NCBI RefSeq assembly: GCF_023573145.1
Contig: NZ_CP097636.1
Span: forward strand, 1,426,001-1,490,000
Direction of reading: 5' to 3'
Length of the DNA stretch: 64,000 bases
From: Aquincola tertiaricarbonis
GTDB taxonomy: Bacteria > Pseudomonadota > Gammaproteobacteria > Burkholderiales > Burkholderiaceae_C
Below the pieces are notes generated by a model. It did not search any database. It was not told the origin of the DNA and was given only the letters and a program-made list of their open reading frames with translations. Both the position numbers and the translations under genes were made by a program. Below are positions 530 through 39,962 of the stretch, piece after piece. How positions within the stretch are numbered: position 1 is the first letter of the stretch; every line of letters begins with the position of its first letter.

Positions 530-1305
530 GGGGCGGCGGTGGCCGCCGAGGCGGCAGGCGCGAGGGTGGCGTCCAGCAGCTCGCGCTCGTCGAACACGAA
601 GCAGCCGCCCCGCCAGTGCGGCGCACCGTCGGTCTCCTCGAAGTACTTCAGGATGCCGCCTTCCAGCTGGTAGACGTGCTGCACGCCGGCTTCCTGCATG
701 GCCAGCGCGGCCTTCTCGCAGCGGATGCCGCCGGTGCAGTAGCTCACCACCGTCTTGCCGGCCAGCTCGGCCGCATGGGCCGCCAGGGCCTTCGGAAAGT
801 CGCTGAAGCGGCGCAGCTCCCAGTCGATGGCGTGCTCGAAGGCGCCGGCCTTCACCTCGAAGGCGTTGCGGGTGTCCAGCATCACCACCGGGCGGCCGTC
901 GTCGTCGCTGCCCTGGTCCAGCCAGCGGGCCAGGGTGCGCGCCGGCACCGAGGGCGCACGCCGTTCCTCGGGGCGGATGGCGGGCTGGTTCATGCGGATG
1001 ATCTCGCGCTTGACCTTGACCAGCAGCCGCCGGAAAGGCGTCTTTTCGCTGAAGCTTTCCTTGTGTGCCAGGTCGGCGAAACGCGGGTCGGCGCGCAGCT
1101 GCGCGAGCCAGCCGCGCAGGCCTTCGACGGGGCCGGCGACGAACAGGTTGATACCTTCTTCCGCCAGCAGCACGGTGCCCTTGATGCCGAGGCTGGCCGC
1201 GGCTTCATGCAGGCGGTCGCGCAGCACCGGCAGGTCGTCCAGGGTGACGAACTTGTAGGCCGAGGCGTTGAGGATGGAGGGGGTGGAAGGCTGCACGGCG
1301 GGCAT
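526..1305 (-). CDS. trhO: tRNA uridine(34) hydroxylase, rhodanese family (UPF0176)
   Basis: A 259-residue protein of the TrhO/YceA family, which performs oxygen-dependent hydroxylation of tRNA wobble uridine to ho5U. It has an N-terminal ferredoxin-like domain (SAYKFVTLDDL, KGTVLLAEEGINLFVAG) and a rhodanese domain with LDTRNAFEVKAGAF and the active-site loop VSYCTGGIRCEKAA. The start MPAVQPS is chosen because the family N-terminus begins shortly after it. The open frame runs far upstream, but that part lies antisense inside dnaE and is not coding. Only 30 bp separate this start from the divergent dnaE start, so the promoters must overlap the opposite coding regions. The gene is followed by the hydrolase gene with a 4-bp overlap. 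Confidence 0.93.
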   Translation of the reverse strand: MPAVQPSTPSILNASAYKFVTLDDLPVLRDRLHEAAASLGIKGTVLLAEEGINLFVAGPVEGLRGWLAQLRADPRFADLAHKESFSEKTPFRRLLVKVKREIIRMNQPAIRPEERRAPSVPARTLARWLDQGSDDDGRPVVMLDTRNAFEVKAGAFEHAIDWELRRFSDFPKALAAHAAELAGKTVVSYCTGGIRCEKAALAMQEAGVQHVYQLEGGILKYFEETDGAPHWRGGCFVFDERELLDATLAPAASAATAAP

Positions 1306-1335
1306 TCTAGGAGGGCCGCTGCCTACAATCCCGCG

Positions 1336-4300
1336 ATGCCTTTTGTCCACCTTCGCATCCATACCGAGTTTTCCGTCGTCGACGGCACCCTGCGCATCGA
1401 CGAGGCGGCCCAGGGCGCCAAGCGGGACGGGCAGGTGGCCCTGGGCATCAGCGACCTGTCCAACCTGTTCGGCACGGTCAAGTTCTATTCGGCCTGCCGC
1501 AAGGCCGGCGTCAAGCCGCTGATCGGCGTGGACGTGTGGATGGAGCCCGAGCCCGGCGAAAAGCAGCCCAGCCGGCTGCTGCTGATCGCGCAGGATGCGC
1601 AGGGTTACCTGAACATCAACCAGCTGCTGTCGCGTGCCTGGACGGGCAACACCCAGCGCGCCCAGGCCTGGGTCAAGTGGGCCTGGCTGCAGGAGTTGTC
1701 GGCGGGGCTGATCGCGCTGTCGGGCGCCGATGCCGGCGCGGTGGGGCAGGCGCTGCTGGCCGGCGACGATGCCCGCGCGGATGCGCTGGCCCAGCGCTTC
1801 TCGGCCGCTTTCCCGGGCCGCTTCTACATCGAGCTGCAACGCGCCGGCCTGCCCACCAACGAGCCGCATGTGCGCGTGGCGGTGCCGCTGGCGGCGCGGC
1901 TGGGGCTGCCGGTGGTGGCCACCCACCCGGTGCAGTTCAACACGGCCGAGGACTACGAGGCGCACGAGGCCCGCGTGTGCATCGCCGAAGGTGAGACGCT
2001 GGCCAATCCGCGCCGCGTCAAGCGCTTTTCGCGTGAGCAGTACTTCAAGCCGCAGGCCGAGATGGAGGCGCTGTTCGCCGACATTCCCAGCGCGCTGGCC
2101 AACACGCTGCGCATCGCGCAGCGCTGCAACCTGAGCCTGGTGCTGGGCAAGCCGCGGCTGCCCGACTTTCCCACGCCGGGCGGCATCCCGATCGAGCAGC
2201 ACTTCCGCGCCGCCTCGCTGGAAGGCCTGGAACAGCGGCTGCTGCAGCTCTACCCCGATGCAGCCAAGCGTGATGCCGAACGGCCGCGCTACGTGGAGCG
2301 GCTCAACTTCGAGATCGACGTCATCCTGAAGATGGGCTTTCCGGGCTATTTCCTGATCGTGTCGGACTTCATCACCTGGGCCAAGAACAACGGCTGCCCG
2401 GTGGGGCCGGGCCGGGGCTCGGGCGCCGGCTCGCTGGTGGCCTATGCGCTGTCGATCACCGACCTCGACCCGCTGCGCTACAACCTGCTGTTCGAGCGCT
2501 TCCTGAACCCCGAGCGGGTGTCGATGCCCGACTTCGACATCGACTTCTGCCAGGGCAACCGCGACCGGGTGATCGACTACGTCAAGCAGAAGTACGGGCT
2601 GGACGCGGTGAGCCAGATCGCCACCTTCGGCACCATGGCGGCCAAGGCCGCGCTGCGCGACGTGGGCCGCGTGCTGGGCATGGGCTATGGCCATGTCGAC
2701 TCCATCGCCAAGCTGATTCCGGCGCCGCCTGGCAAGACGGTGACGCTGGCCAAGGTGCCGGAGAACCCCGACGGCGGCGTGATCTACGCCCGCAAGGAAG
2801 CGCCTGAGCTGGAACAGCGCGAAGCCGCCGAAGAGGAAGTCGCCGCGCTGCTGGACCTGGCTGCGCGCGTGGAAGGCATGGTGCGCAACATCGGCATGCA
2901 CGCCGGTGGCGTGCTGATCGCGCCGGGCAAGATCACCGACTTCTGCCCGCTGTACCAGCAGCCGGGCAGCGAATCGGCCGTCAGCCAGTACGACAAGGAC
3001 GACGTCGAGGCCATCGGCCTGGTGAAGTTCGACTTCCTGGGCCTGGCCACGCTCACCATCCTGGAGACGGCCAAGGAATTCATCATGCGCCGGCATCCTT
3101 CGCAGAAGGACTTCGCGTACGAGAAGATTCCGCTGGACGATGCGCGTGCCTACAAGCTGTTCTCCGACGGCCTGACCGAGTCGGTGTTCCAGTTCGAATC
3201 ACCCGGCATGCAGCGCATGCTGCGCGATGCCCGGCCCAGCGTGTTCGAGGACATCATCGCGCTGGTGGCGCTGTACCGGCCGGGCCCGATGGACCTGATT
3301 CCCAGCTTCTGCGCCCGCAAGCACGGGCGTGAGGAGGTGGTGTACCCGCACAAGCTGCTGGAAGGCGTGCTCGCCGAGACCTACGGCGTGATGATCTACC
3401 AGGAGCAGGTGATGCAGTCGGCCCAGGTGCTGGGCGGCTACTCGCTCGGCGGCGCCGACCTGCTGCGCCGGGCCATGGGCAAGAAGAAGCCCGAGGAGAT
3501 GGCCAAGCACCGCGAGATCTTCCGCGAGGGCGCGGCCGCCAAGGGCATCGACGGCAAGACCGCCGACGAAGTCTTCGACCTGATGGAGAAGTTCGCAGGC
3601 TACGGCTTCAACAAGAGCCATGCCGCCGCCTACGCCCTGCTGGCCTACCACACGGCCTGGCTGAAGGTGCACTACACGGCCGAGTTTTTCGCGGCCAACA
3701 TGTGCATCGAAACCGACGACACCGACAAGCTCAAGGTGTTGCTCAACGATGCGCAAACGCACTTCGGCATCCGCTTCGAGCCGCCTGACGTCAACAGCGG
3801 CACCTACCGCTTCGAACCCATCGACGACAAGACCGTGCGCTACGGCCTGGGCGCCATCAAGGGCACCGGCCAGGGCGCGATCGAGGCCATCGTCGCCGCG
3901 CGCGAGCAGGGCGGTCCGTTCCGCAGCCTGTTCGACTTCTGCGCCCGCGTGGACCGCCAGCGCATCAACAAGCGCGTGGTGGAAGCACTGATCAAGGCCG
4001 GTGCCTTCGACAAGCTGCACGCCGACCGCGCCAGCACGCTGGCCAGCGTGAGCCTGGCGCTGGACTGGGCCGACAGCCAGGCCGCGCATGCCGACCAGGG
4101 CGGCCTGTTCGACTTCGACGATGCCCACGGCAGCAGCACGCAGGAGCCGCCGCTGGTGGCCGCCGAGCCGTGGAGCGTGAAGGAGCGGCTGACGCTGGAA
4201 AAGACCGCCATCGGCTTCTACCTCTCGGGCCACATGTTCGACCAGAGCGAAGCCGAGGTGCGCCAGTTCGTGCGCCGCGAGGTGGCCGACCTGGCCGACA

Positions 4301-26307: not shown

Positions 26308-26680
26308 GGGGCCGACCTGGTTTCGACGTGGGTACGGATCCGGCGCAGGGCATGCCGAGCACCAGTTCGCTCGTAAAACCACTGGAAACAAAGTAACTGC
26401 GAACGACGAACGTTTCGCCCTCGCCGCTTAACACCGGTGAGCCTCTCAACGGTTGGCCAATGGGCCGGGTTGAAGATCGCAAGATCCTAGACTGAGAGGT
26501 CATTCACATTGGCTGGTTCTGAGCCGGGTCACTCGGTTCAGGACGAGATCTAGTGACTGGCGTGAAGGGTAGCGTGCTGCTGCGCGACCTCAGCGTGAGA
26601 CTCCAAATCAGCCAGCTACGCATGTAGAACTGTCCGGTGATGGTTCGCGGACGGGGGTTCGATTCCCCCCGGCTCCACCA
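26308..26680 (+). ncRNA. ssrA: transfer-messenger RNA (tmRNA)
   Basis: A one-piece tmRNA that rescues stalled ribosomes. The 5' GGGGCCG pairs with CGGCTCC before the 3' terminal ACCA, and GGTTCGATTCCCC is the T-arm. The resume codon GCG at 26399 begins a tag reading frame that encodes ANDERFALAA and ends at TAA 26429-26431, the betaproteobacterial type of degradation tag. The upstream GUAAC sequence before the resume codon is present. The 3' end is the integration target of the island that follows, and integration leaves the mature sequence intact. Confidence 0.97.
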
Positions 26681-26687
26681 GATCACC
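26667..26687. other. attL (tmRNA 3' end)
   Basis: CCCCGGCTCCACCAGATCACC spans the last 14 bases of tmRNA and 7 bases beyond. The same string, minus one T, recurs at 38728-38747. These are the left and right core attachment sites of the island. Confidence 0.88.
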
Positions 26688-26851: not shown

Positions 26852-28147
26852 ATGGCCCGCCAGCTCATCCCCGGTGACGTCACCCTGCGCAGCATCAAGC
26901 CTGGGGACGGGCGCAAGCGCATCAACGATGGCAATGGCCTGTACCTGCTGCTGTTCGTGAAGGGCGGCGCGCACGGCTGGCGCTTCGACTACTCGCTGCA
27001 AGGCACACGCAAGACGCTGAGCCTTGGCACCTACCCGGCAACCGGCCTGGCCGAGGCCCGCCGCAAGGCCGAGGAGGCGCGCGCGCTGGTCGCCAAGGGG
27101 GTAGACCCCAGCGAGGCCCGCAAGGCGTCCAAGGCCGAGGCCGAGCGGCAGCGCGAAACGCAGAAGCGGGCCGAGGCTGGCTTGCCGGCGGCCGATAGCT
27201 TCGAGGCGGTGGCCCGTGAGTGGCTGGCCCGGGTGCACGCGGCCAAGGTCAGCGAGGGGCACGCCGATCGCACGCGCATCCGCCTGGAACAGGAGGTGTT
27301 CCCGTGGCTGGGCCCGCGGCGCATCGCCGAGCTGAAGGCGCCCGACCTGCTGGCCTGCCTGCGCCGCGTGGAAGCCCGCGGGGCGCTGGAAACCGCTCAC
27401 CGCGTCAAGCAGGCCTGCGGCCAGGTGTTCCGCTACGGCATCGCCACGGGCCGCTGTGAGCGCGACGTGGCCGCCGATCTGCGTGATGCCCTTGCACCGG
27501 TCCACGTGACCCACCACGCGGCCATCACGGACCCGGTGCGGGTGGGTGAGCTGCTGCGCGCCATCGAGGCGTACAAGGGCCACGGCACCACGCGGGCCGC
27601 GCTGCAGCTCGCGCCGCTGGTCTTCCTGCGGCCGGGCGAGTTGCGCCAGGCCGAGTGGTCGGAGTTCGACCTTGATGCCGGCGTGTGGACCATCCCGGGC
27701 AGCCGCATGAAGCGGACCAAGCAGGCCAAGGTGAGCGGCGGTGCGCACCTGGTGCCGCTGTGCCGCCAGGCGGTGGCCATCCTGCGCGACCTGCAGCCGC
27801 TCACGGGCGCCGGCCGCTACGTGTTCCCCAACCTGCGCACGCGCGACCGGCCCATGTCCGATGCCGCGGTGCTGGCCGCGCTGCGGCGCATGGGCTTCCC
27901 GCGTGACGAGATGACCGGCCACGGCTTCCGGGCGATGGCCAGGACGATGCTGGCCGAGCGCCTGGGCGTGGATGAATCGGTGGTGGAAGCGCAGCTCGCC
28001 CACGCGGTGCGCGACAGCCTGGGGCGTGCGTACAACCGCACCGAGTTCGTCGACCAGCGGCGCCAGATGATGCAGACGTGGGCCGACTACCTGGACCGCC
28101 TGCGCAAGGGTGCCGAGGTGGTGGCCTTGCCCGCGCGCACGGCCTGA
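26852..28147 (+). CDS. tyrosine-type site-specific integrase (P4 family)
   Basis: A 431-residue integrase. The N-terminal arm-binding DUF4102 domain has DGRKRINDGNGLYLLLFVKG and GTRKTLSLGTYPATGLAEAR. A core-binding domain follows at about 110-215, then the catalytic domain with Arg in LAPLVFLRPGELRQAEWSEF, the H-x-x-R box GHGFRAMARTMLAERLG, and the nucleophilic Tyr in LGRAYNRTEFVDQRRQMM. Length and domain order match P4-like integrases, which often use tRNA or tmRNA genes. It sits 172 bp after ssrA, pointing into the island. Confidence 0.95.
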   Translation: MARQLIPGDVTLRSIKPGDGRKRINDGNGLYLLLFVKGGAHGWRFDYSLQGTRKTLSLGTYPATGLAEARRKAEEARALVAKGVDPSEARKASKAEAERQRETQKRAEAGLPAADSFEAVAREWLARVHAAKVSEGHADRTRIRLEQEVFPWLGPRRIAELKAPDLLACLRRVEARGALETAHRVKQACGQVFRYGIATGRCERDVAADLRDALAPVHVTHHAAITDPVRVGELLRAIEAYKGHGTTRAALQLAPLVFLRPGELRQAEWSEFDLDAGVWTIPGSRMKRTKQAKVSGGAHLVPLCRQAVAILRDLQPLTGAGRYVFPNLRTRDRPMSDAAVLAALRRMGFPRDEMTGHGFRAMARTMLAERLGVDESVVEAQLAHAVRDSLGRAYNRTEFVDQRRQMMQTWADYLDRLRKGAEVVALPARTA

Positions 28148-28775: not shown

Positions 28776-29090
28776 GGAGGGGGTATCCCAGGGCGCACCC
28801 GCCCGGGCCAGGATGAACGCCAGCGCACGACCTTGCGGCCTTCGATCCGACGCGACTCCCATGGGTCTTCAGCCCTTCATCACTGGGGCTGCGAGCCGCA
28901 CTTCCCCGGAAATTGGGCGCGAGAAGACTGCCCCGATGCCCAGGCCTTCGCGGCGGTGGCTTGGCATCGTGGCGATGCACTACGATGACCACGCACCGCG
29001 CAGCGGGCCGCTGATCACGGCCCGAAGCCCGGACGCCCCGCCCGGGGCGCGGTGCCTTCGTCGGCGGGGCCTGTGCGGCGCGGGGGCTGT

Positions 29091-29882
29091 ATGGATGAAT
29101 TCAAGTCGCTTCACTACGAAGGCGACCACGGAAAGCTGGTGTGCGAGGCCGGCAACCTTTGCAGTGTTGCGGACTTGGTCAGGGCAGAGATGCACTTCAA
29201 CCGCACGCCACTGCGGCCGGCTGTTCGGTCGGTGCTGGACAAGTTGGAGGGGCAAAGCGCCGTGCGGGTCTATGTGACTCAGCCGCGCGACTACGCCGTG
29301 TTGGTGCCTGCCACCATCGAGGACGAAGACCGGCGGGGCGTGTCTGCAAGTGGCAGGGCATCAACCGCGCGGTCCGTGACGCGCGCAAGTCTGCTTGAGC
29401 GAGTGCGGCGGCACTGGCTACGGGACGACATGACCGAAGATGGCCTGCACTTCCGGTCAGAGATTTGGGGTGGGCAGCTTGCGATGCTCATTGACGATGC
29501 GAGTGATCTGGGGTTGCTCGAATGCATGTTGGCCGCCGACGGGTCTGCTGCGGCCTGCCCTGCCGAGTCCTCCGGTGCCTTGTCGAACTGTCAGCCCTTG
29601 GGAGGCGCCTGGCCCCATCAGCAAGGCGCAGCGTGGACGCATGCCGAGCGGGACGCCATGTTCAAGATGCGCCACCTTGAAGGCCTTTCGGACCAGCAGA
29701 TAGCGGACACGGCCGGCTGCACGCGGCAACTCGTTGCCCAGCAGATCGGCGCCAAGCACGACTGGAAGCGCAAAGACTGGGAGGGCGGCGCACGCGGCTG
29801 GGCGCCAACGCCGGCCCTTCTCGCTGAGTGCAAGTTGGAGCCGCAGCCCTTGCAGGCGGTGAGCAAGGCCCTCAGCGCCTGA
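29091..29882 (+). CDS. unknown island protein with possible C-terminal HTH
   Basis: A 263-residue protein not recognised as a known family. It starts MDEFKSLHYEGDHGKLVCEA. The middle contains RASLLERVRRHWLRDDMTED and an acidic, Ala-rich part. The C-terminal third has DAMFKMRHLEGLSDQQIADT followed by AGCTRQLVAQQIGAKHDWKR, which reads like a helix-turn-helix that tests for a target sequence. Its GC content at third positions is lower than that of the core genes, consistent with island origin. It is the first gene after the gene-free block and stands about 190 bp before alpA. Confidence 0.6.
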   Translation: MDEFKSLHYEGDHGKLVCEAGNLCSVADLVRAEMHFNRTPLRPAVRSVLDKLEGQSAVRVYVTQPRDYAVLVPATIEDEDRRGVSASGRASTARSVTRASLLERVRRHWLRDDMTEDGLHFRSEIWGGQLAMLIDDASDLGLLECMLAADGSAAACPAESSGALSNCQPLGGAWPHQQGAAWTHAERDAMFKMRHLEGLSDQQIADTAGCTRQLVAQQIGAKHDWKRKDWEGGARGWAPTPALLAECKLEPQPLQAVSKALSA

Positions 29883-30070
29883 TCCTTGGGCCTGCCTCTG
29901 CTACGGCACCGGCGCAGCGTCTGCAAGGCCGCTGCAAGTGGCTGCAAGGGCACCCCAGTTCGCATGATCTGCCCAGGCTCGTTGGAGCCTCGGCGGGTGC
30001 GTAAAGGTCTTATGCGGTCTTGATGGCAAGGCCGGCCAGCACTCCCGAAACCACTTCGGAGAGTGAAGGC

Positions 30071-30322
30071 ATGCAGCTGGCCACCGTCAACCGTCCCCAG
30101 ATCCCCCGTGATCGCCTGATTCGCCTGCCCGAGGTGGAGCGGGTCACGGGCTGCAAAAAGTCCACCATCTACCTGCTGATGAAGCGCGGGGAGTTCCCGC
30201 GCTGTGTGCAGATCACGCCGCGCATGGTGGCCTGGCCAGAGTCGGCGGTGCTGCAGTTCGTGCAGGACCGCATCGCCGCCGCCGCCGCCCAGCAGCCCGG
30301 CGAAGGCGTGGCGGCTGCATGA
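30071..30322 (+). CDS. alpA: AlpA-family phage transcriptional regulator
   Basis: An 83-residue MerR-like winged-helix protein of the AlpA family: RDRLIRLPEVERVTGCKKST followed by IYLLMKRGEFPRCVQITPRM and VAWPESAVLQFVQDR, the complete consensus of the family (L-x-E-V-x-x-x-x-G-x-S/K-x-x-x-I-Y, F-P-x-x-V, W-x-x-x-E/A-V). AlpA activates integrase or excision genes in cryptic prophages and satellites. The ATG with GAGTGAAGG upstream is preferred to an ATG/TTG pair 48-51 bp earlier. It overlaps the next gene by ATGA. Confidence 0.9.
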   Translation: MQLATVNRPQIPRDRLIRLPEVERVTGCKKSTIYLLMKRGEFPRCVQITPRMVAWPESAVLQFVQDRIAAAAAQQPGEGVAAA

Positions 30323-30858
30323 AGGCTGCTGACAACGCCCTGCTGCCCCTCTTCGCCGCCTGGCTCAAGCGCCAGGAAGCGGTCGGGCGCTTGCCCTGGT
30401 GCAGTCAGCCCGAAGCGGGGCACCTGGTGCTGGCCGGCAACTGCATCGGCGTTCGCGCCGCCCGCATGCCTGGCAGCGATGACCCGGAAAGCGACGTGCT
30501 GGACTTCAGCGCCGCCGCCGCCGCTGCGTCGGTGGATCACCACTGCGCGGTGTTGCTGCCTTCGGCGCTGCTGGCCTTCGTTGCGAGCGCTGCGGGCATC
30601 CCCGCTGGCTGGGTGGGTTCGGTGCGCAACGTGTCGCAGGCCCTGGCCCCGCTGCTGAGCTGCGGCGCTGTGCGTGCCTGGCGCAGCGATGAGCGCCCCT
30701 TGTCGGGCATGCCGCTGGTACCGGTGTTGCTGTTCTCGCAGCTGCAGCCGCAAGCGTATGTGGTGCGGCTGCACGGACCCGGCTCCATCGCGGCATGGGC
30801 GCATGCCGGCGTGGGTGCGGCAGCGGGGCGCTCGATGCTTGCCGAAGGGCTGGACTGA
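30319..30858 (+). CDS. unknown island protein, paralogue A
   Basis: A 179-residue protein with no recognised domain. It overlaps alpA by ATGA and shares the TGATG junction with its paralogue downstream. Features common to both are an N-terminal LxxWLxxQEAVGRLPW, a CIGVRA/CVGVRA strand, the HHCAVLLPSALLAFVAS segment, VRNVSQALAPLLSCGAVRAW, and a final VLLFSQLQPQAYVVRLHGP strand. The pattern looks like a compact alpha/beta fold. Co-expression with the AlpA regulator is likely. No function can be given. Confidence 0.7.
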   Translation: MKAADNALLPLFAAWLKRQEAVGRLPWCSQPEAGHLVLAGNCIGVRAARMPGSDDPESDVLDFSAAAAAASVDHHCAVLLPSALLAFVASAAGIPAGWVGSVRNVSQALAPLLSCGAVRAWRSDERPLSGMPLVPVLLFSQLQPQAYVVRLHGPGSIAAWAHAGVGAAAGRSMLAEGLD

Positions 30859-31409
30859 TGTACAGCCCCAGTACACCACCGGTGAGCGCCGAGCACGCGG
30901 CGCTGCTGGACCGCCTCACGTGCTGGCTGCGCCTGCACGCGGATGCCGGCCGGCTGCCTTGGGTGGTGGACCCTGCCGCCTCCGAGGCTGTCGTGCGGGG
31001 CCACTGCGTGGGCGTGCGCGCCACGTTTCCCGCAGAGGCGGGGCGCATCGTCTTCGGCCTGGCGGCGGACCATCCTGGCCGCCGGCACTGCGTCGCGCTG
31101 CTGCCCACGGCGCTGGCTGCCTTCCTGGCGGCCGATGTGGGGCGTTCTGCGGCCTGGCACGGCACGCGGGCCGACATCGCCGCCGCGCTGCAGCCTCTTC
31201 TTGAGCGGGGCTTTGTGCTGCGTTTCCCCGAGCGTCTGCTCGTGGACGACGTGGGCCTGCCCACGGCGGCAGCCCGGGTGCTCTTCGCCCAGGAACCACG
31301 CGGCTTCGTGCTGCCGCTGGGCGCCCCGCGCGGCCTGGTGCTGGGCGATGGTGCTGACGTACCGCCAGCAGCGGCAGCACGGCCATCCGTGGGTGGTGGC
31401 GCGGCATGA
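30858..31409 (+). CDS. unknown island protein, paralogue B
   Basis: A 183-residue protein starting in a TGATG junction with paralogue A. Matching segments are LTCWLRLHADAGRLPWVVDP, HCVGVRATFP, RRHCVALLPTALAAFLAADV, TRADIAAALQPLLERGFVLR and ARVLFAQEPRGFVLPLGAPR. The last part with APRGLVLGDGADVPP is specific to B. The two genes appear to be an old tandem duplication. The C4-like RNA begins 85 bp after its stop. Confidence 0.7.
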   Translation: MYSPSTPPVSAEHAALLDRLTCWLRLHADAGRLPWVVDPAASEAVVRGHCVGVRATFPAEAGRIVFGLAADHPGRRHCVALLPTALAAFLAADVGRSAAWHGTRADIAAALQPLLERGFVLRFPERLLVDDVGLPTAAARVLFAQEPRGFVLPLGAPRGLVLGDGADVPPAAAARPSVGGGAA

Positions 31410-31494
31410 GGCGCATGCACCAGGCGGTGCCCGCCGCCAGCAGCTCGGGTGCCGACGCTTTGCCCTGGCGCTCCGCGGTGCTACATTCCGCTCG

Positions 31495-31567
31495 CCCCTG
31501 GGTGACAGGGGTCGGGTGTGGAAACCCGGTAAACGAAGGCGCGCGGCCGCCTCAAGAGCGGCCTTTT
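31495..31567 (+). ncRNA. C4-like antisense RNA with terminator
   Basis: Three hairpins follow each other: CCCCTG-GGTGA-CAGGGG (31495-31511), CGGGT-GTGGAA-ACCCG (31513-31528) and GGCCGC-CTCAAGA-GCGGCC-TTTT (31545-31567), the last being a rho-independent terminator. The segment 31518-31539 is complementary to 31643-31662 in the downstream leader: 19 of 20 target positions can pair, with a 2-nt bulge. This architecture is that of C4 antisense RNAs, which block expression of the following operon in P1/P7 and P4-like elements. The 5' end is unknown and may lie up to about 30 nt upstream. Confidence 0.7.
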
Positions 31568-31570
31568 CTT

Positions 31571-31735
31571 TGCGCGTCAGATCGCCTGTCGGCGTCCTGT
31601 TCAAGGGCGGCCCGGGCGGGGAGGCCTTCGGGCCTGCCGGTTCCTTCGTTCCGGTTTTCCACCCCCGCTTTGGGCCGCCACCCCCGTGTGGAAACGGGGG
31701 CGGCGGTTGTGTACCGCAACGAAGGAGCCGACAAC
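31571..31735 (+). promoter_or_regulatory. leader targeted by the C4-like RNA
   Basis: A 165-bp gene-free leader between the RNA terminator and the next ATG. It carries the antisense target CCTTCGTTCCGGTTTTCCAC (31643-31662), a short CCTGTC block (31585-31590) complementary to GACAGG in hairpin 1, and a strong hairpin CCCCCG-TGTGGAAA-CGGGGG (31681-31700). The loop of that hairpin repeats GTGTGGAAA of the RNA, so local pairing with the target can be exchanged for pairing with the RNA. The ribosome site GAAGGAG follows. Confidence 0.55.
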
Positions 31736-32083
31736 ATGGCTGGTCCGACCCTGGGCGCAACCGCGCCCGTGCAGACGTCTGCACCCTCGCAGCGTCCCCT
31801 GATCCGCATCCCCGAAACCACCCGCACGCGCCGCAACCACGGCGTGTTTCTGCTGGGCAATGAGCTGGCCAGCGTCTACAGCTCGCGCCGCCAGGCCGGC
31901 GGCCTGGGCGTGACGATGGCGCTGGGCGAAGGCTCGATGGTGCTCACCAGCAGCATGACCGCCGCCCAGGCCCGCGCCATGGCCCGGGCGCTGATCGCCG
32001 CGGCCGATGCCGCCGAAACCGTGTTGCGGCCCGTGGCCGCCATCGCCGCCGCCAGCACCGGCGTGACGCGAGGTGCAGCATGA
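31736..32083 (+). CDS. unknown small island protein, first gene under C4-like control
   Basis: A 115-residue protein starting at ATG after GAAGGAG. The central part RRNHGVFLLGNELASVYSSR followed by RQAGGLGVTMALGEGSMVLT looks like a small beta-rich domain. The N-terminus is Pro/Thr-rich and the C-terminus Ala-rich helical. I do not recognise it. It is the first gene of a chain in which each gene overlaps the next by a few bases up to the P-loop gene, so its translation likely controls the chain. Confidence 0.65.
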   Translation: MAGPTLGATAPVQTSAPSQRPLIRIPETTRTRRNHGVFLLGNELASVYSSRRQAGGLGVTMALGEGSMVLTSSMTAAQARAMARALIAAADAAETVLRPVAAIAAASTGVTRGAA

Positions 32084-32601
32084 AGGCCATCGACGCGAAG
32101 CCGGTGAGCTGCATTCCTGGTGCATCGGAAGGGGCTGACCTCAGCCTCACCGTGGTCGCCATGGGCTATGACCTGTGGGAAGGCACATCAGCCCAACTTG
32201 CAGCCGAGGGGCTGATTCCTGCGGGCTTCGAGTGGCCATCGCGCGACCAGTGGAAGGGCTGGACTGCTGGGCCTATGCACTACCTGCTGCACCGGCGCAA
32301 GCCGCACGGCTTCAAGGGGCCGCGCCGGGCGTGGATGGAGCTGGATCACTGGCGCTTGCGGCGCACCTTGGCCACGCATCGCAATGACGCGTTTTTCCAC
32401 GCCCGGCTGCACGAGGCGAGGCAAGAGCTGGCATGCCTGGAATGGGGGCAAACCGCGCAGGGCCGAGAAGCGTTCAGGCGCTGGCTGCAGGCCGGTGATG
32501 ACCGGGCCTTCCAGCGGTTCCTCAAGGCCGCGCTGCCGGCGCGTGGCGCGCGGCGCGGTCAGGTGGCAACCGGCCGAGCTGGCAAAGGTGGCCAGCCATG
32601 A
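32080..32601 (+). CDS. unknown island protein
   Basis: A 173-residue protein overlapping its neighbours by ATGA on both sides. It contains EWPSRDQWKGWTAGPMHYLL and HRRKPHGFKGPRRAWMELDH, with many Trp, Arg and His residues, then a helical part ARLHEARQELACLEWGQTAQ. The basic and aromatic character suits nucleic-acid binding (inference). No family recognised. Confidence 0.65.
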   Translation: MKAIDAKPVSCIPGASEGADLSLTVVAMGYDLWEGTSAQLAAEGLIPAGFEWPSRDQWKGWTAGPMHYLLHRRKPHGFKGPRRAWMELDHWRLRRTLATHRNDAFFHARLHEARQELACLEWGQTAQGREAFRRWLQAGDDRAFQRFLKAALPARGARRGQVATGRAGKGGQP

Positions 32602-33086
32602 GCACGAACACCGCGCAAGTCGTGGCGCTGCCGGGTGCAGTACTGCAGCCCGTGGTCAACCACCGCGGCCGCGGCCCGCTGCCGCGTGGCATTGGCCGCC
32701 TCGATCACGCCCGCCGCGCACGCCGGGCCCAGCTCATGGCGGCTGAGTTCGCGGCCGGCGCTGCCGCCAAGAAACAGGCCGAAGCGGCGGCCTTCTGGCG
32801 CGCCTCTATCGAGCTTGCCCAGGAGGAAGCCGACGAACAGGCCGAGCTGCTGGCCCTGCCCGCCCTGGCGCTGGTGGCACTGGTGCGCAGCCGCGCCGCT
32901 GAGCGGCTGCAGGCCGCCCGCCACAAGGCCGACAAGGCGCACGCGGCCCTGGCGGCGCTGCAGCCGCAGCAGGCCTGCAGCCAGGCCGCGCCGCTGCCGT
33001 TGGGCACGGTGGGGCCTGTGTCCCGCAGCACCAGTGCCGCCGCCGATGACCGCCGCAGCCTGGTTGCCGAGGGGGTTCGGTCATGA
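32598..33086 (+). CDS. unknown island protein, Ala-rich coiled coil
   Basis: A 162-residue protein. A central long helix (ARRAQLMAAEFAAGAAAKKQ, AEAAAFWRASIELAQEEADE, RAAERLQAARHKADKAHAAL) probably forms a coiled coil. The ends are low-complexity. ATGA overlaps on both sides place it in the same translational chain. No function assigned. Confidence 0.6.
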   Translation: MSTNTAQVVALPGAVLQPVVNHRGRGPLPRGIGRLDHARRARRAQLMAAEFAAGAAAKKQAEAAAFWRASIELAQEEADEQAELLALPALALVALVRSRAAERLQAARHKADKAHAALAALQPQQACSQAAPLPLGTVGPVSRSTSAAADDRRSLVAEGVRS

Positions 33087-33466
33087 GCATCAAGCACTGT
33101 GAACTGAGCAGTACCTTGCCATCACTCCTGGCCGGCCTGGTGGACCGCGCGGCCGACAACCTCACGCATGGCGAGCTGCAGCACCTGGCCAGCTTCAGCG
33201 AGGTGGCGCACATGCAGATCCAGCGGCTGGGCTGTGTGGCCGAAGGCGTGGCCCTGCTGGTGCAGAACGATGCGCAGGCGGCCACACCGGCCGGCAACTT
33301 CCAAACGCCTGAATCCGTCTCGCTGCTGCTGCTGGCGCTGGCCGACATGGCGGCGCAGGCCGATGCGCTGCTGACCATGGGCCAGCATGCCGAAGGCGTG
33401 ATGGAGTCGCGGGCCATGCCCGCCGCGGCTACGGCGCGGCGGCCTGGCAAGGGAGCGGCGCATTGA
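33083..33466 (+). CDS. unknown island protein, helical
   Basis: A 127-residue helical protein: LLAGLVDRAADNLTHGELQH, then HMQIQRLGCVAEGVALLVQN and SVSLLLLALADMAAQADALL. It resembles the short DUF3077-type or four-helix phage proteins in size only. It starts at ATG in ATGA and overlaps the next gene through TTGA. Confidence 0.6.
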   Translation: MSIKHCELSSTLPSLLAGLVDRAADNLTHGELQHLASFSEVAHMQIQRLGCVAEGVALLVQNDAQAATPAGNFQTPESVSLLLLALADMAAQADALLTMGQHAEGVMESRAMPAAATARRPGKGAAH

Positions 33467-33798
33467 ACCCGGCCCGCTGCATCAAGGCCGAGCACGTGCT
33501 GCTGGCGCTGGTGGCGCGCCGCGCCAACCCGTCTTGCCGTTGGGCCGCGATGGCCGATCACCACTGGACGGCCCGCGAGTGCTGGCGCCGCGACCTTGGC
33601 CCGACGACCGTGCACGCGCGGCCGCCGGCACTCACGCCCATGCAGCGCGGCAGCCTGCATCGGGCCATCCGCCGGCAGTACCTGGTCGAAGGCCTGCGCG
33701 GCATCCGCAAGACCTTCGGCACCACGCTGCGTGCCGTGGTGGCTGAACCGGCCCACGTGGTGCCCGACGGGCGCATGGCTGCCACAGGAGAACGCTGA
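33463..33798 (+). CDS. unknown island protein with TTG start
   Basis: A 111-residue basic protein whose only suitable start is TTG inside a TTGA overlap. It contains YLVEGLRGIRKTFGTTLRAV and many Arg and His. Rare starts within coupled overlaps are usual for such chains. It shares one base (TGATG) with the P-loop gene that follows. No family recognised. Confidence 0.55.
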   Translation: MNPARCIKAEHVLLALVARRANPSCRWAAMADHHWTARECWRRDLGPTTVHARPPALTPMQRGSLHRAIRRQYLVEGLRGIRKTFGTTLRAVVAEPAHVVPDGRMAATGER

Positions 33799-34328
33799 TG
33801 GACTTCAACGTAACGCGGGACCAGCTTCACCCGCGGTGGCTCACGCCGCCGCGCTGCAAGGTGCACTTGGTGTGCGGTGCTCCGGGCAGCGGCAAGAGCA
33901 CCCACGTGGCCACCCACCGCCAGCCCGGGGATACGGTCATCGACGTGGATGAGATCCTGGCCGAACTGGCGGGCTTGCCCCTCTACGTGGGCGACAAGGC
34001 GCAGTGGCTGGGGGCGGCCATCGATGAACGCAACCGCCGGCTGCAGGCCCTGGCCGCGCAGCCGGCCGACCACGTGGCCTGGTTCATCGTCGGCGCTGCC
34101 GACCCGGCGGCCTGCCAGTGGTGGGCCGTGAAGCTGCGCACGCGGTCCATCGTGGTCATCCACACGCCGCGCCGTGAATGCCTGGCCCGCATCGCGGCCG
34201 ACCCTCGCCGGGCGCACTGCCAGGCCGAGCACATCGCGGCCGTGAACTACTGGTTCGACGCCAGGGAAAGAGCTTGGAGCGCTGCGCAGCAGCGGGCTGA
34301 GCGAGACAGCCGCCGCAGCGACTGGTGA
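33798..34328 (+). CDS. P-loop kinase/ATPase-like protein
   Basis: A 176-residue protein with Walker A in VHLVCGAPGSGKSTHVATHR (about residues 22-41), a short Asp-rich strand DTVIDVDEILAELAG typical of polynucleotide-kinase-like AAA_33 proteins, the strand IVVIHTPRRECLARIAADPR in the place of the lid Arg residues, and a Trp/Arg-rich C-terminus. The substrate could be an RNA or DNA 5' end or a small molecule. Its position is directly upstream of the primase remnant, at the end of the coupled chain. Confidence 0.75.
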   Translation: MDFNVTRDQLHPRWLTPPRCKVHLVCGAPGSGKSTHVATHRQPGDTVIDVDEILAELAGLPLYVGDKAQWLGAAIDERNRRLQALAAQPADHVAWFIVGAADPAACQWWAVKLRTRSIVVIHTPRRECLARIAADPRRAHCQAEHIAAVNYWFDARERAWSAAQQRAERDSRRSDW

Positions 34329-34356
34329 ACGCGCGCAGGCGCACCTGAAGGACTCC

Positions 34357-36777
34357 ATGACACGCACTGCGCACCAGCGCCCCACCGTTCCCCGCGTCAT
34401 CACCGCTGAGCTGGTGCGTGAAGCGCTTTCGTTCGTGCCGCCCGATGTCGACCGCGAAACCTGGGCGCGCGTGGGCATGGCCATCAAGTCCGAGCTGGGC
34501 GAGGCGGGGCAAGAACTGTTCATGGACTGGTCGGCCCGCGGCCAGGCCTTCGCGGCGGCCGATGCCCATGCGCAACGCTGCCGGCGAGCTGCTGAACCTG
34601 CAGCGGGTGCTGCCCCAGCGGCCGCGCGACGGCAGCCCGGAAAAACGCTTTCTGGCCGGTGGCCGCAAGACCGGGCTGTTGCACTGGATCGGCCAGCCTG
34701 AGGGCGCCCCGCTGTTGTTGCTGGCCGAGGGCTACGCCACCGCGGCCAGCCTGCACGAAGCCACGGAGCGGCCCGTGGCGGTGTGCTTCGACGCCGGCAA
34801 CCTGGTGCACGTGGCCAAGGCCTTGGGCGAGCGGTTCCCCGGCGTGCCGCAACTGGTGTGCGGTGACGATGACCGCGACACGCAGGACCGCAGCGGCAAG
34901 AACCCGGGCCGCGACAAGGCCGCCAGCGCGGCCCGCGCCGCCAGGGCGCTGCAGTCCCCGGCCGCAACCGTGTTCCCCGTAGGCCTACCGGAAGGCGGCA
35001 GCGACTTCAACGACCTGGCCGCCGCTGCTGGAGGTGAGGTGGTGCGCGACGTGGTGGAGCGCGCCGCCGCTGCGCTGCTGGCCGGCAAGGCGCCGCCGCC
35101 GGTTGAGCCTGCGGCCGATGCTGCGGATGCGCCGCCGGCCGCACGGACGGGGCCTACGCTGCGCGTTCTGCCTGGTGGCAAGGGCAAGGGTGCGGCCGAG
35201 GCTTCGGGCGGCTCTGGCGGCCGCGGTGCTGGGCGTGGCCGCGACGGTGGGGCCGGCGCCGATGGTGAGGACGACGACGACGGCGGCGGCGGGGAACCGC
35301 CGACCTTCGCTGACCCGTTCTTCGTGGATGACCACGGCGTGTGGCACGTGGCCCGCGATGCCGAGGGGAACGAGAAAAAGCCGGTGTGGATCTGCGCTCC
35401 GCTGCACGTGACTGCGCGCACCCGGGCCGACGATGCGAACGGGTGGGGCAACCTCTTGGAGTTCACCGACCCGGACGGCAATGCCAAGGTGTGGGCCATG
35501 CCGGCGGCGATGCTGAGCGGGGAGGGAAGCGAGTGGGCCGGCCGGCTGCGGGACATGGGCCTGCGCATGGCGCCGGGCACGCGGCCGCGCAACCTCCTGG
35601 CGCAGTACATCGACACGCGCCAGCTCAGCGAGCGTGTGACATGCACCGACCGCGTGGGCTGGCACGGCGGCGTCTACGTGCTGCCCAGTGGCTGCATCGG
35701 TGGCGATGGCGAAAGCCGGCGCTACGTGTTCCAGAGCGAAAGCGGCATGGAAGACACCTTCCGCCGGCACGGCACGCTGCAGCAGTGGCAAGAGCGGGTC
35801 GGCGCGCTGTGCGTCGGCAACTCGCGGCTGCTGTTCGCGGTGAGCTGTGCGCTGGCCGGCCCGATGCTGCGGCCGGCCGAGGTGGAAAGCGGTGGCTTTC
35901 ACTTCCGGGGTGAATCCAGCCAGGGCAAGACCACGGCCCTGAAGGTGGCCACCAGCGTGTGGGGCCGGCCGAGCTACATGCAGCGCTGGCGCACCACCGA
36001 TAACGCGCTGGAAGCCACGGCGGTGCAGCACTGCGACTGCACCCTGATCCTCGATGAGTTCGGCCAGCTGGACCCGCGTGTTGCCGGGGATGTTTCCTAC
36101 ATGTTAGCCAACGATCAAGAGAAGGGCCGGGCCACCCGCGGCGGGCTCAGCCGCAAGCGCCGCACCTGGCGGCTGCTGTTCCTGTCGTCGGGTGAAGTGT
36201 CCCTGGCGCAGCACATGGAGCTGGCAGCGAAGATGCCGCGCGCTGGCCAGGAAGTGCGCATGCTCGATATCCCCTTGGATGCCGGCGTGGGCATGGGCGG
36301 CTTGGAGCAGCTGCACGGCCTGGACCGGCCCGCCGAGCTGGCCGACGCCATCACCAGCGCGGCCGCGAAGTTCTACGGCGCTGCGGGCCGGGCCTGGCTC
36401 GAATGGGCGGCCGCCCACTTCGACACGCTGACCACCGCGCCGGCACCCCGCTGCGCATGGGCTTCAAGCGCATGGTCGATGGCGAGGGCGAGCCGGTGAA
36501 GATCGACGCGGCCACCGAGTACATCGACAAGCGCAGCACCGAAGAAAGCCGCGCGGTGACGAACTCGCTGGTGGAGTACATGGTGCTGCCCGAAGCCTTC
36601 AAGCGTGAGATGTGCAAGGGCTTCGACCACAACGCGGTGGCCGCCATCCTGCGCGCCGCCGGCCACCTGCGCACCGATGGCCAGCGCTTCACGAACCGCG
36701 TTCGCCTGCCCGGGATGGGGAAGGTGGCGGTCTACCACTTCAAGCCCTCGATCTTCACCACCGAAGGAGACGACTGA
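34357..36777 (+). pseudogene. P4-alpha-like primase/helicase (DUF927), broken by two frame changes
   Basis: The start after GAAGGA gives a PriCT-type N-terminus in frame 1 (LVREALSFVPPDVDRETWAR, VGMAIKSELGEAGQELFMDW). Near 34560 homology jumps to frame 2 with the Toprim-like part PMRNAAGELLNLQRVLP and LLLAEGYATAASLHEATERP. The DUF927 helicase follows, with Walker A FRGESSQGKTTALKVATSVW and Walker B CTLILDEFGQLD. Near 36440 it returns to frame 1 (GFKRMVDGEGEP, YMVLPEAFKREMCKGFDHNA). Segments usually present between these parts are missing at both junctions, so two internal deletions are likely. They restore the original frame at the end, and the intact centre could still be made as a 34418-36499 product only with a foreign N-terminus. 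Confidence 0.85.
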
Positions 36778-36778
36778 T

Positions 36779-37162
36779 ATGCCCATGGCTGCCCCCAAGC
36801 CCTGTGCGCACCCGGGCTGCGGCCAGCTGGTGCGCGATGGCACCAGCCGCTGCAGTGCCCACAAGGTGCGCCCCGGCAGCTTTGCTGATGCGGGCCGTGG
36901 TACGCGCCAGGAACGCGGCTACGGCGCGGCCTGGGATCGCCTGCGGCGGCGCATCCTGGTGCGCGATGGCGGGCTGTGCCAGCCCTGCCTACAGGCCGGC
37001 CACACCACCGCGGCGCAGGCGGTCGACCACATCGTGAACAAGGCGACATGGCGCCGGCGCCATGGCTCGCTGAAGGGCTGCGACGACGAGGGCAATCTGC
37101 AGTCCATCTGCAACGACTGCCACCGCCAGAAGACCGACCGTGAGAAGCGGGGTGAGGCATGA
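36779..37162 (+). CDS. HNH endonuclease, phage packaging type
   Basis: A 127-residue HNH nuclease. The N-terminus has PCAHPGCGQLVRDGTSRCSA with two Cys pairs, ERGYGAAWDRLRRRILVRDG and LCQPCLQAGHTTAAQAVDHI (the first His of HNH). The end is DDEGNLQSICNDCHRQKTDR, with Asn, Cys pair and His. In lambdoid phages and capsid-forming satellites this gene stands directly before terminase. Here no terminase follows. The ATG lies one base after the primase stop. Confidence 0.92.
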   Translation: MPMAAPKPCAHPGCGQLVRDGTSRCSAHKVRPGSFADAGRGTRQERGYGAAWDRLRRRILVRDGGLCQPCLQAGHTTAAQAVDHIVNKATWRRRHGSLKGCDDEGNLQSICNDCHRQKTDREKRGEA

Positions 37163-37509
37163 GCGGCCCCAGTCGCCTGGGGCGCAAGGTCACCTGGCGG
37201 CCGCGGGGCGAGGTGCGCCAGGCCATCGGTGCGGCTGCGCAGGCGTACATGGCCGAGGGCCAGCCGGCCACCATCCGAGAGCTGGCAGCGCGGGCTGGCG
37301 TCGGGCTGATCGCAGCCCAGCAGTGCGTGTCCAACATGCTGCGGGCCGGCGAGCTGGCCGCCACGGGCACGAAGGCGATGCCGGGCGTCAAGCGTCCCGT
37401 GCTGCTGCTGGTGCCCGTCGCCGCGGTGGCTGCCAGTGAACCCGCCGGCCGCGACCTGGGCCGGCTGCTGGCCGGATGGTCGGCCAAGGTGCGACCGCCT
37501 CGCACGTGA
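37159..37509 (+). CDS. small winged-helix-like DNA-binding protein
   Basis: A 116-residue protein overlapping the HNH gene by ATGA. YMAEGQPATIRELAARAGVG and LIAAQQCVSNMLRAGELAAT read as a winged helix. The C-terminal part VLLLVPVAAVAASEPAGRDL is hydrophobic to amphipathic. Perhaps a regulator or a divergent small-terminase-like protein. No firm assignment. Confidence 0.6.
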   Translation: MSGPSRLGRKVTWRPRGEVRQAIGAAAQAYMAEGQPATIRELAARAGVGLIAAQQCVSNMLRAGELAATGTKAMPGVKRPVLLLVPVAAVAASEPAGRDLGRLLAGWSAKVRPPRT

Positions 37510-37625
37510 ATCGCACGCGGCCCGGCGGCGAGCCAGGGCCGCGAAGCTGCGGGGGCAAGCGCGCCTCCCGCAACACGGCCCGACGTGGGAACGGCCCGGG
37601 CCTCAACCAGCAGATCTACCCGTGA
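37506..37625 (+). CDS. possible 39-residue open frame, remnant or leader
   Basis: A GTG in a GTGA overlap with the preceding gene opens a short basic frame (KRASRNTARRGNG, ending GLNQQIYP). The overlap follows the pattern of the operon, but the sequence has no known match. It may be the start of a packaging gene whose rest was lost. Confidence 0.3.
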   Translation: MNRTRPGGEPGPRSCGGKRASRNTARRGNGPGLNQQIYP

Positions 37626-38727: not shown

Positions 38728-38747
38728 CCCCGGCCCACCAGATCACC
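38728..38747. other. attR of the ssrA island
   Basis: CCCCGGCCCACCAGATCACC repeats the tmRNA 3' end and its flank (26667-26687) with one T missing in the acceptor-stem part. It marks the right edge of the island. Confidence 0.88.
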
Positions 38748-38868: not shown

Positions 38869-39294
38869 GTGACTGCTCTGCCTGCTTCCCAAGCCAGCGT
38901 CTCGCTGGACCATGTCACCGAGCAGCAGATGTCCGCCGCCGGCCTGCGGGCCTTCGAGCGCATCGCGGCCCTGTGGGGCCTGTCGGTGGATGAGCAACTG
39001 GTGCTGCTGGGCAGCCCGGGCCGGTCCACGCTGTTTGCCTGGCGCAAGCAGCCCGAGAAGGCGCATCTGTCGCGCGACACGCTGGAGCGGCTGTCCAACC
39101 TGCTGGGCATTTACAAGGCTTTGCAGATACTGCTGCCCGACCCCGCTGCGGCCGATGCCTGGGTGCGGCGGCCCAACACGGCAGCACCGTTCGGCGGGCG
39201 CAGTGCGCTGCAGCGCATGCTGGCCGGCAACATGAGCGACCTGTCCGCGGTGCGCCAGTACCTGGATGCCGTGCGCGGAGGTGGATGGTCGTGA
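38869..39294 (+). CDS. Xre/MbcA/ParS-type antitoxin
   Basis: A 141-residue antitoxin of the DUF2384 class. QMSAAGLRAFERIAALWGLS and VDEQLVLLGSPGRSTLFAWR form the N-terminal HTH, HLSRDTLERLSNLLGIYKAL links to the toxin-binding domain, and WVRRPNTAAPFGGRSALQRM followed by the YLDAVRGGGW end completes the family signature. The start is GTG, just after a tiny upstream frame (ATG 38846) whose stop overlaps it. The gene overlaps the RES toxin, as these pairs always do. CTAG-containing sequence upstream (38830-38855) may be the operator. Confidence 0.88.
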   Translation: MTALPASQASVSLDHVTEQQMSAAGLRAFERIAALWGLSVDEQLVLLGSPGRSTLFAWRKQPEKAHLSRDTLERLSNLLGIYKALQILLPDPAAADAWVRRPNTAAPFGGRSALQRMLAGNMSDLSAVRQYLDAVRGGGWS

Positions 39295-39962
39295 CCGCCG
39301 TACGCCGGGTCCGTTGGGCGCAGGCCTGCCGGATCGTGCCGACGCGCCATCCGTCGGTCTACCTGTTCGACCGCGTGGCCAGCCCCGACGACTTCGATGC
39401 GCTGTATGCGCTGGAAGCGATGACCAACGACCGCGTGCGCGACGAAGTGGGCCAGATCCAGCTGGTGCCGCCGGCCGACCGCATCTTCGGCCCTGGCACC
39501 GGGCCCATCATGGCGGCCTTCACGCACCTCAATCCATTGGGCAGCCGATTTTCCGATGGCAGCTTCGGCGTGTTCTACGCGGCGGCCGACCGCGCCACCG
39601 CGGTGGCCGAGACGCGCTACCACCATGGCCGCTTTTTGGCCGCCACCGCGCAGGGGCCCATGCACCTGTCGATGCGGCTGTACAAGGTGACCATCGACGC
39701 CCGCCTGCACGACCTGCGGCCCGAGGATGCGGTGCCCGCGGCCGTGTACCACCCCGACGACTATGGCGCCTCGCAGGCCCTGGGCCGCCGGCTGCACGAC
39801 GAAGGCTCGGCCGGCGTGGCCTACCGCAGCGTGCGCCATCCGGGTGGCCAGTGCGTGGGCCTGTTCAAGCCGCAAGGCGCGCGGGCCTGCGTGCATGCGG
39901 CGGTGCTGCTGTACGCGTGGAACGGCCAGGCCTTCACCGACGTGTACGAGAAGGTGGAATGA
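39285..39962 (+). CDS. RES-domain toxin (NAD+-degrading family)
   Basis: A 225-residue toxin. RVRWAQACRIVPTRHPSVYL opens the domain, and NPLGSRFSDGSFGVFYAAAD with RATAVAETRYHHGRF holds the conserved Arg, Tyr and Glu. The C-terminal YRSVRHPGGQCVGLFKPQGA matches the end of RES domains with Ser and Pro. MbcT-type members consume NAD+ when the antitoxin is lost. Starts at 39285 (ATG) or 39291 (GTG) both overlap the antitoxin gene. Next comes a DUF1624 gene with ATGA overlap. The pair lies 120 bp outside the satellite. Confidence 0.88.
   Translation: MVVTAVRRVRWAQACRIVPTRHPSVYLFDRVASPDDFDALYALEAMTNDRVRDEVGQIQLVPPADRIFGPGTGPIMAAFTHLNPLGSRFSDGSFGVFYAAADRATAVAETRYHHGRFLAATAQGPMHLSMRLYKVTIDARLHDLRPEDAVPAAVYHPDDYGASQALGRRLHDEGSAGVAYRSVRHPGGQCVGLFKPQGARACVHAAVLLYAWNGQAFTDVYEKVE

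Follow-up and report, generated by a model that had tools for sequence, protein, structure and literature searches.

Within the window, as we call the whole 64,000-nt stretch of DNA that was analysed, positions 31495 to 31735 hold a set of hairpins and mutually complementary segments in front of a chain of genes. Which of these segments is the regulatory RNA, what does it pair with, and what does it control? Our answer, to which we assign a probability of about 0.9, is that the window holds a complete C4/CI immunity module, and that this module silences the replication operon of a satellite-like island of P4 type. The features on which this answer is built are collected in Table 1.

Table 1. 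Features of the C4 module and of the surrounding island, by position in the window.
Feature	Positions	Strand	Basis or remark
attL, tmRNA 3' end, 13-bp core CCACCAGATCACC	26668-26687	+	17/20 identity to attR
Tyrosine integrase	26852-28147	+	domain search
AlpA-type regulator	30020-30322	+	PF05930
Probable promoter, TTGCCC-16 nt-TACATT	31460-31487 (-10 at 31482-31487)	+	spacing like P1c4
IsrK/seqA-like RNA: hairpin 1, a1 hairpin, b1, intrinsic terminator	31494-31568	+	below-gathering isrK match
a1 target box GTGGAAA	31518-31524	+	exact complement of C4 a' (31656-31662)
b1 target box AACGAAGG	31532-31539	+	exact complement of C4 b' (31643-31650)
Rho-independent terminator, 6-bp GC stem then TTTTCTTT	31545-31570	+	terminator scan; folds alone
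Possible anti-Shine-Dalgarno element CCTGTCGGCGTCC, directly 5' of C4	31585-31597	+	pairs with 31724-31733
C4 antisense RNA, predicted mature 77-nt form	31606-31682	+	ends transferred by position from P1 C4 record
C4 b' loop core CCTTCGTT	31643-31650	+	pairs with b1/b2
C4 a' core TTTCCAC	31656-31662	+	pairs with a1/a2
a2 target box GTGGAAA, within hairpin 31681-31700	31688-31694	+	complement of C4 a'
b2 target box AACGAAGG, extended to AACGAAGGAG with G-U pair	31718-31727 (core 31718-31725)	+	overlaps ORF1 Shine-Dalgarno
ORF1, 115 aa, first gene under predicted C4 control	31736-32083	+	stop overlaps next start (ATGA)
ORF2-ORF6, each start overlapping previous stop (4 nt; last 1 nt)	32080-34328	+	ORF5 start would be TTG
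P4-alpha-like primase region (PriCT_2, Toprim_3, DUF927)	34357-36777	+	pieces searched apart
attR	38728-38747	+	17/20 identity to attL

The C4 RNA and its target boxes

The Rfam model of the C4 RNA (RF01695) matches 31600-31685 on the plus strand over its full length, with 71.9 bits against a gathering threshold of 45 (E 4.7e-12). This segment, with a GC content of 73%, is a C4 antisense RNA. The sequence-only reading had proposed C4-like control and named a covariance search with this model as a check; a C4 RNA is indeed present, but with the roles swapped. What had been taken for the leader is the antisense RNA, and 31495-31567, which had been taken for the antisense RNA, is the a1/b1 target with its terminator. 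The complementarity itself is as described: 31518-31539 (22 nt) and 31643-31662 (20 nt) form 19 of 20 pairs, interrupted by a single C/A mismatch and by a bulged TA (2 nt). The structures were also rightly seen, since the fold of 31495-31572 consists of hairpin 1, the hairpin with a1 and a terminator hairpin, and the hairpin at 31681-31700 carries the loop GTGTGGAAA, a sequence with no copies on either strand of the window other than those at 31516 and 31686. A further b box, at 31718 over the Shine-Dalgarno sequence, had been missed. With the parts list so corrected, an experiment would probe the right 77 nt.

The a' and b' segments of the C4 RNA are complementary to a2 and b2, and b2, which lies at the ribosome-binding site, forms a complementary run of 10 nt with b' when G-U pairs are allowed. 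The duplex of C4 positions 31641-31666 with the a1/b1 region has an energy of -34.1 kcal/mol, which none of 1000 dinucleotide shuffles reached (mean -21.0, sd 3.1), and that with the a2/b2 region has -31.2 kcal/mol, reached by 8 of 1000 (mean -21.9). When the window was scanned on both strands in 6394 segments of 65 nt at steps of 20 nt, nine were at -34.1 kcal/mol or better: three on the complement of C4 itself, two at each of two unrelated places and two on a1/b1. The energy of a2/b2 was equalled by 16 segments and is less exceptional than that of a1/b1, so energy alone would not prove a2.

Upstream of a1, the promoter scanner called no promoter; the candidate in Table 1 fits 8 of 12 consensus positions, which is under the threshold. 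Its TACATT lies 36 nt 5' of a1, and the annotated -10 box of P1c4 in P1, TATAGT, lies 37 nt 5' of a1. A -10-like box within 50 nt 5' of a1 is found in 24 of 53 loci, against a shuffle mean of 6.0. With a permissive Rfam threshold, isrK (RF01394) matches 31494-31568 with 43.2 bits, under its gathering threshold of 50, and c4-a1b1 (RF03163) matches 31481-31532 with 39.0 bits, under 46.7. By analogy with the known systems, 31494-31568 is expected to yield a short terminated transcript. The terminator scan places a stem at 31545-31563; this match is weak alone, because shuffles give 0.5 such hits on average.

The layout is that of the immI locus of P1 (c4-icd-ant), which belongs to the same Rfam family and is annotated in the order a1, b1, C4 (77 nt), a2, b2 and ORF. 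In both, the -10 box stands at nearly the same distance from a1, a2 follows within a few nucleotides 3' of C4 and b2 lies just upstream of the ORF start; the icd stop and the ant start overlap by 4 nt, as ORF1 and ORF2 of the window do. The two differ in that the operon of the window is one of replication with a primase rather than icd-ant, and in that its isrK-type match is better (35.1 bits in P1) and its a1b1 match poorer (51 bits in P1). The C4 score is 68.8 bits in P1. The CI/seqA/seqC region of P4 is of the same family, with an isrK/seqA match upstream, and scores 74.9 bits for C4, 60.8 for isrK and 44.1 for c4-a1b1, the last again under gathering. Thus, the C4 and isrK scores of the window fall between those of P1 and P4, and its a1b1 score is under both.

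Matched boxes in other C4 loci

In the family search, C4 was found in 33 of 250 genomes (26 of 141 genera), and in the order search in 55 of 399 genomes (38 of 159 genera), with four genomes common to both lists; the 14 control genomes gave no C4 in either search. We take the bacterial family of the window, including the relative Methylibium rhizosphaerae, to be betaproteobacteria. We read 31 of the 63 family C4 places, with the window's own C4 and the further copy in its genome included, together with 28 new order loci. The loci were the best-scoring ones, one per genome except for the window's own, and those on the minus strand were reverse-complemented.

The boxes change together with the RNA. 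An exact a1 is present in 29 of the 31 family loci, an exact a2 in 28, and both match their own C4 in 27 (window included), although 13 distinct a' 7-mers occur; the four that fail one test or the other are L015, L018, L026 and L028. When targets were swapped among the family loci 1000 times, at most 10 exact a1 and at most 10 exact a2 were obtained, and no swap reached any of the four totals (exact a1, exact a2, b1 run, b2 run). The mean complementary runs are 6.9 nt for b1 and 7.0 nt for b2, versus 3.7 and 3.4 nt in non-cognate pairs. Against this reading, 3 (a1) and 10 (a2) of 838 non-cognate pairs with a different a' are exact as well. The permutations ignore the relatedness of the loci, but so large a variety of boxes in related loci speaks against simple inheritance. 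The compensatory changes that the sequence-only reading had named as a further check are therefore seen. As the a' TTTCCAC occurs once among the 31 family loci, matched changes were needed at three sites, and because the three sites change together in most loci read, the a box behaves as an immunity code. A looser rule, by which any 7-mer in the 3' part of C4 was accepted, was applied to the family and order loci with P1 and P4: both boxes are exact in 52 of 61, compared with at most 11 of 61 in swaps and a shuffle mean of 0.08. Nine of the 61 fail, P4 among them because its a1 lies outside the searched stretch. The loci form a naturally rewired set in which the a-box code is open to swapping tests.

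The same genome has a second C4 (G000:C2:2438210-2438304), directly 5' of a P22_AR_N antirepressor gene (L032 11577-12304, minus strand), with the a' CCGCCAA versus TTTCCAC here. Thus, one host contains C4 loci of two types, antirepressor and replication, whose codes differ, and the two probably do not cross-regulate. Where first ORFs were scanned singly, two of five were of antirepressor type (P22_AR_N, Phage_pRha) and three gave no match. A Pfam/PHROG scan of ORF1 and 82 ORFs 3' of C4 in 20 loci, chosen by a GC3 rule that skipped some first ORFs, found primases in 3 members and antirepressors in up to 3 among the matches listed (the 25 commonest families out of 86 and 157).

The idea that C4 generally accompanies DUF927 primases was considered and rejected: by hand count, a DUF927 match lies within 10 kb 3' on the same contig and strand at just 5 of the 63 C4 places, and C4 is so placed at 5 of 36 DUF927 places. 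A Toprim_3 search was too unspecific. Four genomes (G038, G322, G346 and G555) have 9 to 12 C4 matches each, those of G038 within 2.7 Mb.

C4 has been described from Proteobacteria and phages, and c4-a1b1 from gammaproteobacteria and phages (Weinberg et al. 2010, PMC2864571); the occurrence of C4 in Burkholderiales is stated in PMC5320573, citing Weinberg et al. 2010, and Mycetohabitans chromids carry C4 RNAs (PMC12696581). The locus of the window is therefore a further example and not a new class: it joins the known C4/CI switch, now on satellite-like islands in the window's bacterial family. A survey of P4-like satellites deals with Enterobacterales, and the word 'antisense' is absent from its main text (PMC8628076).

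The ORF1 operon and its island

The homologues of ORF1 form 41 protein clusters (at 90%). ORF1 itself falls into no family of Pfam, PHROG or NCBIfam at E 0.001, and ORF2-ORF5 have no match in these collections at E 0.1. ORF6 (33798-34328) is an AAA_33 P-loop protein, for which the best PHROG is labelled terminase small subunit (E 6.7e-30). None of ORF1-ORF6 matches an antirepressor, the kind of target that a P1-type immI operon would encode. The operon had been called unrecognised, and for ORF1-ORF5 this holds; the chain leads, however, to a PriCT/Toprim/DUF927 primase region that starts 29 nt past the end of ORF6 (34328) and stands behind an AlpA gene, in P4 order. As overlapping starts run through ORF2-ORF6, a block at ORF1 could silence the whole chain by coupling.

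Among 60 related genomes, ORF1 gave three matches, the window itself and two weak ones with internal stops. The database homologues P0003, P0006 and P0018 have N-terminal extensions. That of P0006 is the longest (~65 residues) and resembles, by eye, the translation of the window through C4, so that some of these starts appear to have been called too early. The cI CDS of the P4 record suggests an ORF that runs through C4 in the frame of ORF1, but no clear sign that such an ORF is conserved was seen. Of 58 loci, 40 have the ORF1 frame open through C4, against 28 and 34 for the remaining two frames; open frames are no proof of a nested ORF, because GC-rich sequence may explain them.

The island is ~12.06 kb long and lies in ssrA. 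It encodes, in order, the integrase, a 276-aa ORF, AlpA, two unknown ORFs, the C4 module, ORF1-ORF6, the primase region, an HNH protein and smaller ORFs; integrase, AlpA and primase thus stand in P4 order around a CI module. P4 likewise has the AlpA-type ORF88 before its CI region and small genes and alpha after it, and the integrase, AlpA and Toprim pieces of the island match P4 at 36, 42 and 33% identity. Unlike P4, the island is inserted at the tmRNA gene, has HNH and P-loop genes, lacks clear signs that a nested ORF through C4 is conserved and gives no Psu or Sid match among the ORFs scanned. The search for the capsid-hijacking genes psu, sid and delta used the Pfam names that we presumed to count as these genes and found no match at E 0.1 in 16 island ORFs or pieces, the ORF at 38362 being scanned with NCBIfam only.

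Several minor features were seen in and beside the island. Near the C-terminus of the 276-aa protein (29052-29882) lies a weak match of sigma-70 region 4 type, and the ORF at 37159-37509, the last before a gap, weakly matches a Ren-like exclusion PHROG (E 0.001). An ~850-nt stretch without a clear gene follows before attR; it holds the only plus-strand copies of CTACATTTTGAG, at 37788 and 38111, repeats that are possibly part of a replication origin. Directly outside attR, at 38869-39962, lies a pair of an Xre/MbcA/ParS-type antitoxin and a RES-domain toxin.

Relatives with an ORF1 homologue keep the central arrangement. In Methylibium rhizosphaerae C1-9 (L056), an island adjoining a tRNA-Phe gene contains integrase, AlpA, an isrK match under gathering (41.4 bits), C4, ORF1 and primase. 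An ORF1 relative is encoded in two viral contigs (L090 and L091), and both (2 of 2) have C4 directly upstream and a primase downstream, with isrK matches below gathering; L090 gave no AlpA match, and its integrase is encoded downstream on the opposite strand. In the three relatives with an ORF1 homologue, the a boxes differ from those of the window at each of the three places. In L090, a protein encoded at 782-3424, upstream of the C4 island, resembles, by eye, a phage tail tape-measure protein. Beside tRNA-Ser genes of Rhizobacter sp. Root1238 lie two islands (L057, L058) that have integrase, AlpA and primase and no C4 at E 1e-4, so C4 is a replaceable part and not essential to such islands; between integrase and AlpA they have matches to PtaRNA1/SymR-like antitoxin RNAs, one PtaRNA1 above gathering. 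Phage records showed no DNA similarity to 31300-33800 at E 1e-5, and no match to the DUF927 piece of the island was confirmed in viral contigs. In plasmid records 85 matched parts of 30800-37600, and among the eight plasmid matches listed two Mycetohabitans records cover ~31506-31733 at 69.7%.

Modes of control and a candidate third layer

What the sequences show is the RNA family, the six boxes with their order and their co-evolution across genomes, the overlapping ORFs and the setting in an island; processing, repression, termination and titration are modelled here on P1, P4 and Gifsy-1. One promoter, with a transcription start near 31494, would transcribe the a1/b1 hairpin RNA, the terminator, C4 and the operon, and cutting of the read-through transcripts would release a C4 RNA of ~77 nt. 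The 5' end of C4 is processed by RNase P at a GGW motif, and C4-derived sRNAs of Acinetobacter baumannii show apparent RNase P-like processing in RNA-seq (PMC5320573); the predicted site in the window reads GGC, as in two RNAs of that study. These sRNAs share the C4 fold and have variable a' and b'; they occur in many copies in a single genome with host targets proposed (PMC5320573), whereas here one island copy has its own targets. In the lowest-energy fold of the whole leader a1/b1 is paired with C4 in cis, so C4 must be released to act in trans. Its b' and a' would then pair with b2 and a2, and since b2 overlaps the Shine-Dalgarno sequence, ORF1 and the coupled chain towards the primase would stay untranslated. 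For C4 RNAs, b' has been described as partially occluding ribosome-binding sites and a' as giving specificity (PMC5320573).

A second level would lie upstream. By pairing with a1/b1 of newly made transcripts, C4 should promote termination at 31545-31570, and the short a1/b1 RNA might in return titrate C4. In P4-like phages, SeqA is structurally homologous to IsrK, and in Gifsy-1 the short IsrK RNA activates its own read-through mRNA, acting in trans on its own locus (PMC4825925). Compared by description, not by sequence, IsrK/STnc1160-anrP of Gifsy-1 shares with the window a short a1/b1 RNA with a terminator, a CI-like stable RNA downstream and a read-through operon; it differs in that its short RNA activates orf45-anrP (PMC4825925), the target here being ORF1. 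The window has the parts for both a translation block and termination, of which the translation block appears the surer level.

It is possible, if on balance doubtful, that control is mainly transcriptional, in which case C4 drives termination by binding a1/b1, and it matters little that b2 overlaps the Shine-Dalgarno sequence. P4 CI is reported to cause termination through seqA and seqC (PMC4825925), an intrinsic terminator lies 3' of b1 here, and a strict rule, applied to the stretch from a1/b1 to C4, finds a terminator-like stem and T run in 20 of 31 family loci (shuffle mean 0.85) and 9 of 28 order loci (shuffle mean 1.0). By this rule, however, 11 of the 31 family loci and 19 of the 28 order loci have no terminator. 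Moreover, b2 overlaps the Shine-Dalgarno sequence in 22 of the 30 family loci with a recognised start, the b2 run being 1-5 nt off in six of the other eight and absent in two, and its pairing to C4 is conserved; termination alone needs neither.

We consider it unlikely that the module is a decayed, inactive relic with a pairing that survives by recency. The primase region is spread over three reading frames (PriCT_2; Toprim with DUF927; a C-terminal piece), so the island may be decaying, and four other C4-linked DUF927 genes as well as that of L090 are single frames of 927-1139 codons. The split primase is a pseudogene or a sequencing error. All six boxes are nevertheless intact and matched, around an a' found in no other of the family loci read. 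A little less probable still is that 31495-31567 is itself the antisense RNA and acts on the leader at 31643-31662. Their complementarity is real and symmetrical, and the homologous IsrK does act in trans (PMC4825925); but the C4 model falls on the other partner, the P1 record marks both a1/b1 and a2/b2 as sites targeted by C4 (putative ones in the case of a1 and b1), and the Gifsy-1 short RNA activates, unlike the repression by C4 (PMC4825925). The GC content of the C4 match, the terminator-like hits in shuffles and the 16 segments equalling a2/b2 might suggest a chance structure in GC-rich DNA, a reading of negligible probability that is ruled out by the covariance-model score, the shuffle tests and the swap tests.

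The C4/CI module as we read it has one feature that was least expected, an arm just 5' of C4 that appears able to pair with the same Shine-Dalgarno sequence as b2, and for which the support is moderate and mixed. The arm includes CCTGTC (31585), which the sequence-only reading had paired with GACAGG (31504) of hairpin 1. That pairing is at chance level, 115 of 1000 shuffles being as good, and the two words occur 19 and 16 times on the plus strand of the window. The CCTGTC block pairs better with the Shine-Dalgarno region 31724-31733, where CCTGTCGGCGTCC can pair with GGAGCCGACA at the ORF1 start (-21.3 kcal/mol; 11 of 1000 shuffles as good). This helix is absent from the lowest-energy fold of the whole leader.

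Across 56 loci, three without a recognised start having been dropped, none of 2000 swaps reached the cognate mean; by group, the counts were 0 of 2000 for 30 family loci and 6 of 2000 for 26 order loci. The position of the arm gave the best mean energy among the offsets tried. Matched changes of arm and Shine-Dalgarno sequence were seen by eye in L004, L018, L024 and L025, and in L101 of another set, and pairing is poor in L009 (-4.0), L020 (-5.0) and L010 (-5.7). In 21 distinct loci of two close groups there was no signal of covariation (538 of 5000 swaps as good), because the core GGCTCC/GGAGCC hardly varies; these loci pair better than shuffles (-12.9 vs -9.3). Of 57 loci in the close set, 29 were parsed, 28 with a start and 21 distinct, and the set is a selected one because 27 pattern places failed.

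More tentatively than for control by termination, we suggest, while rather doubting it, that C4 modules carry a third control layer, in which the arm sequesters the ORF1 start in cis in uncut transcripts and the switch is self-timed by RNase P. If so, cutting out C4 would detach the arm from the mRNA, the step that makes the repressor would also open its target, and the ORF1 start would then depend on free C4 alone. With such an arm, a textbook antisense system would have one step more. We found no description of it in the papers cited here and claim no priority. P1 shows the arm (-10.5 kcal/mol), and P4 shows it weakly (-9.2).
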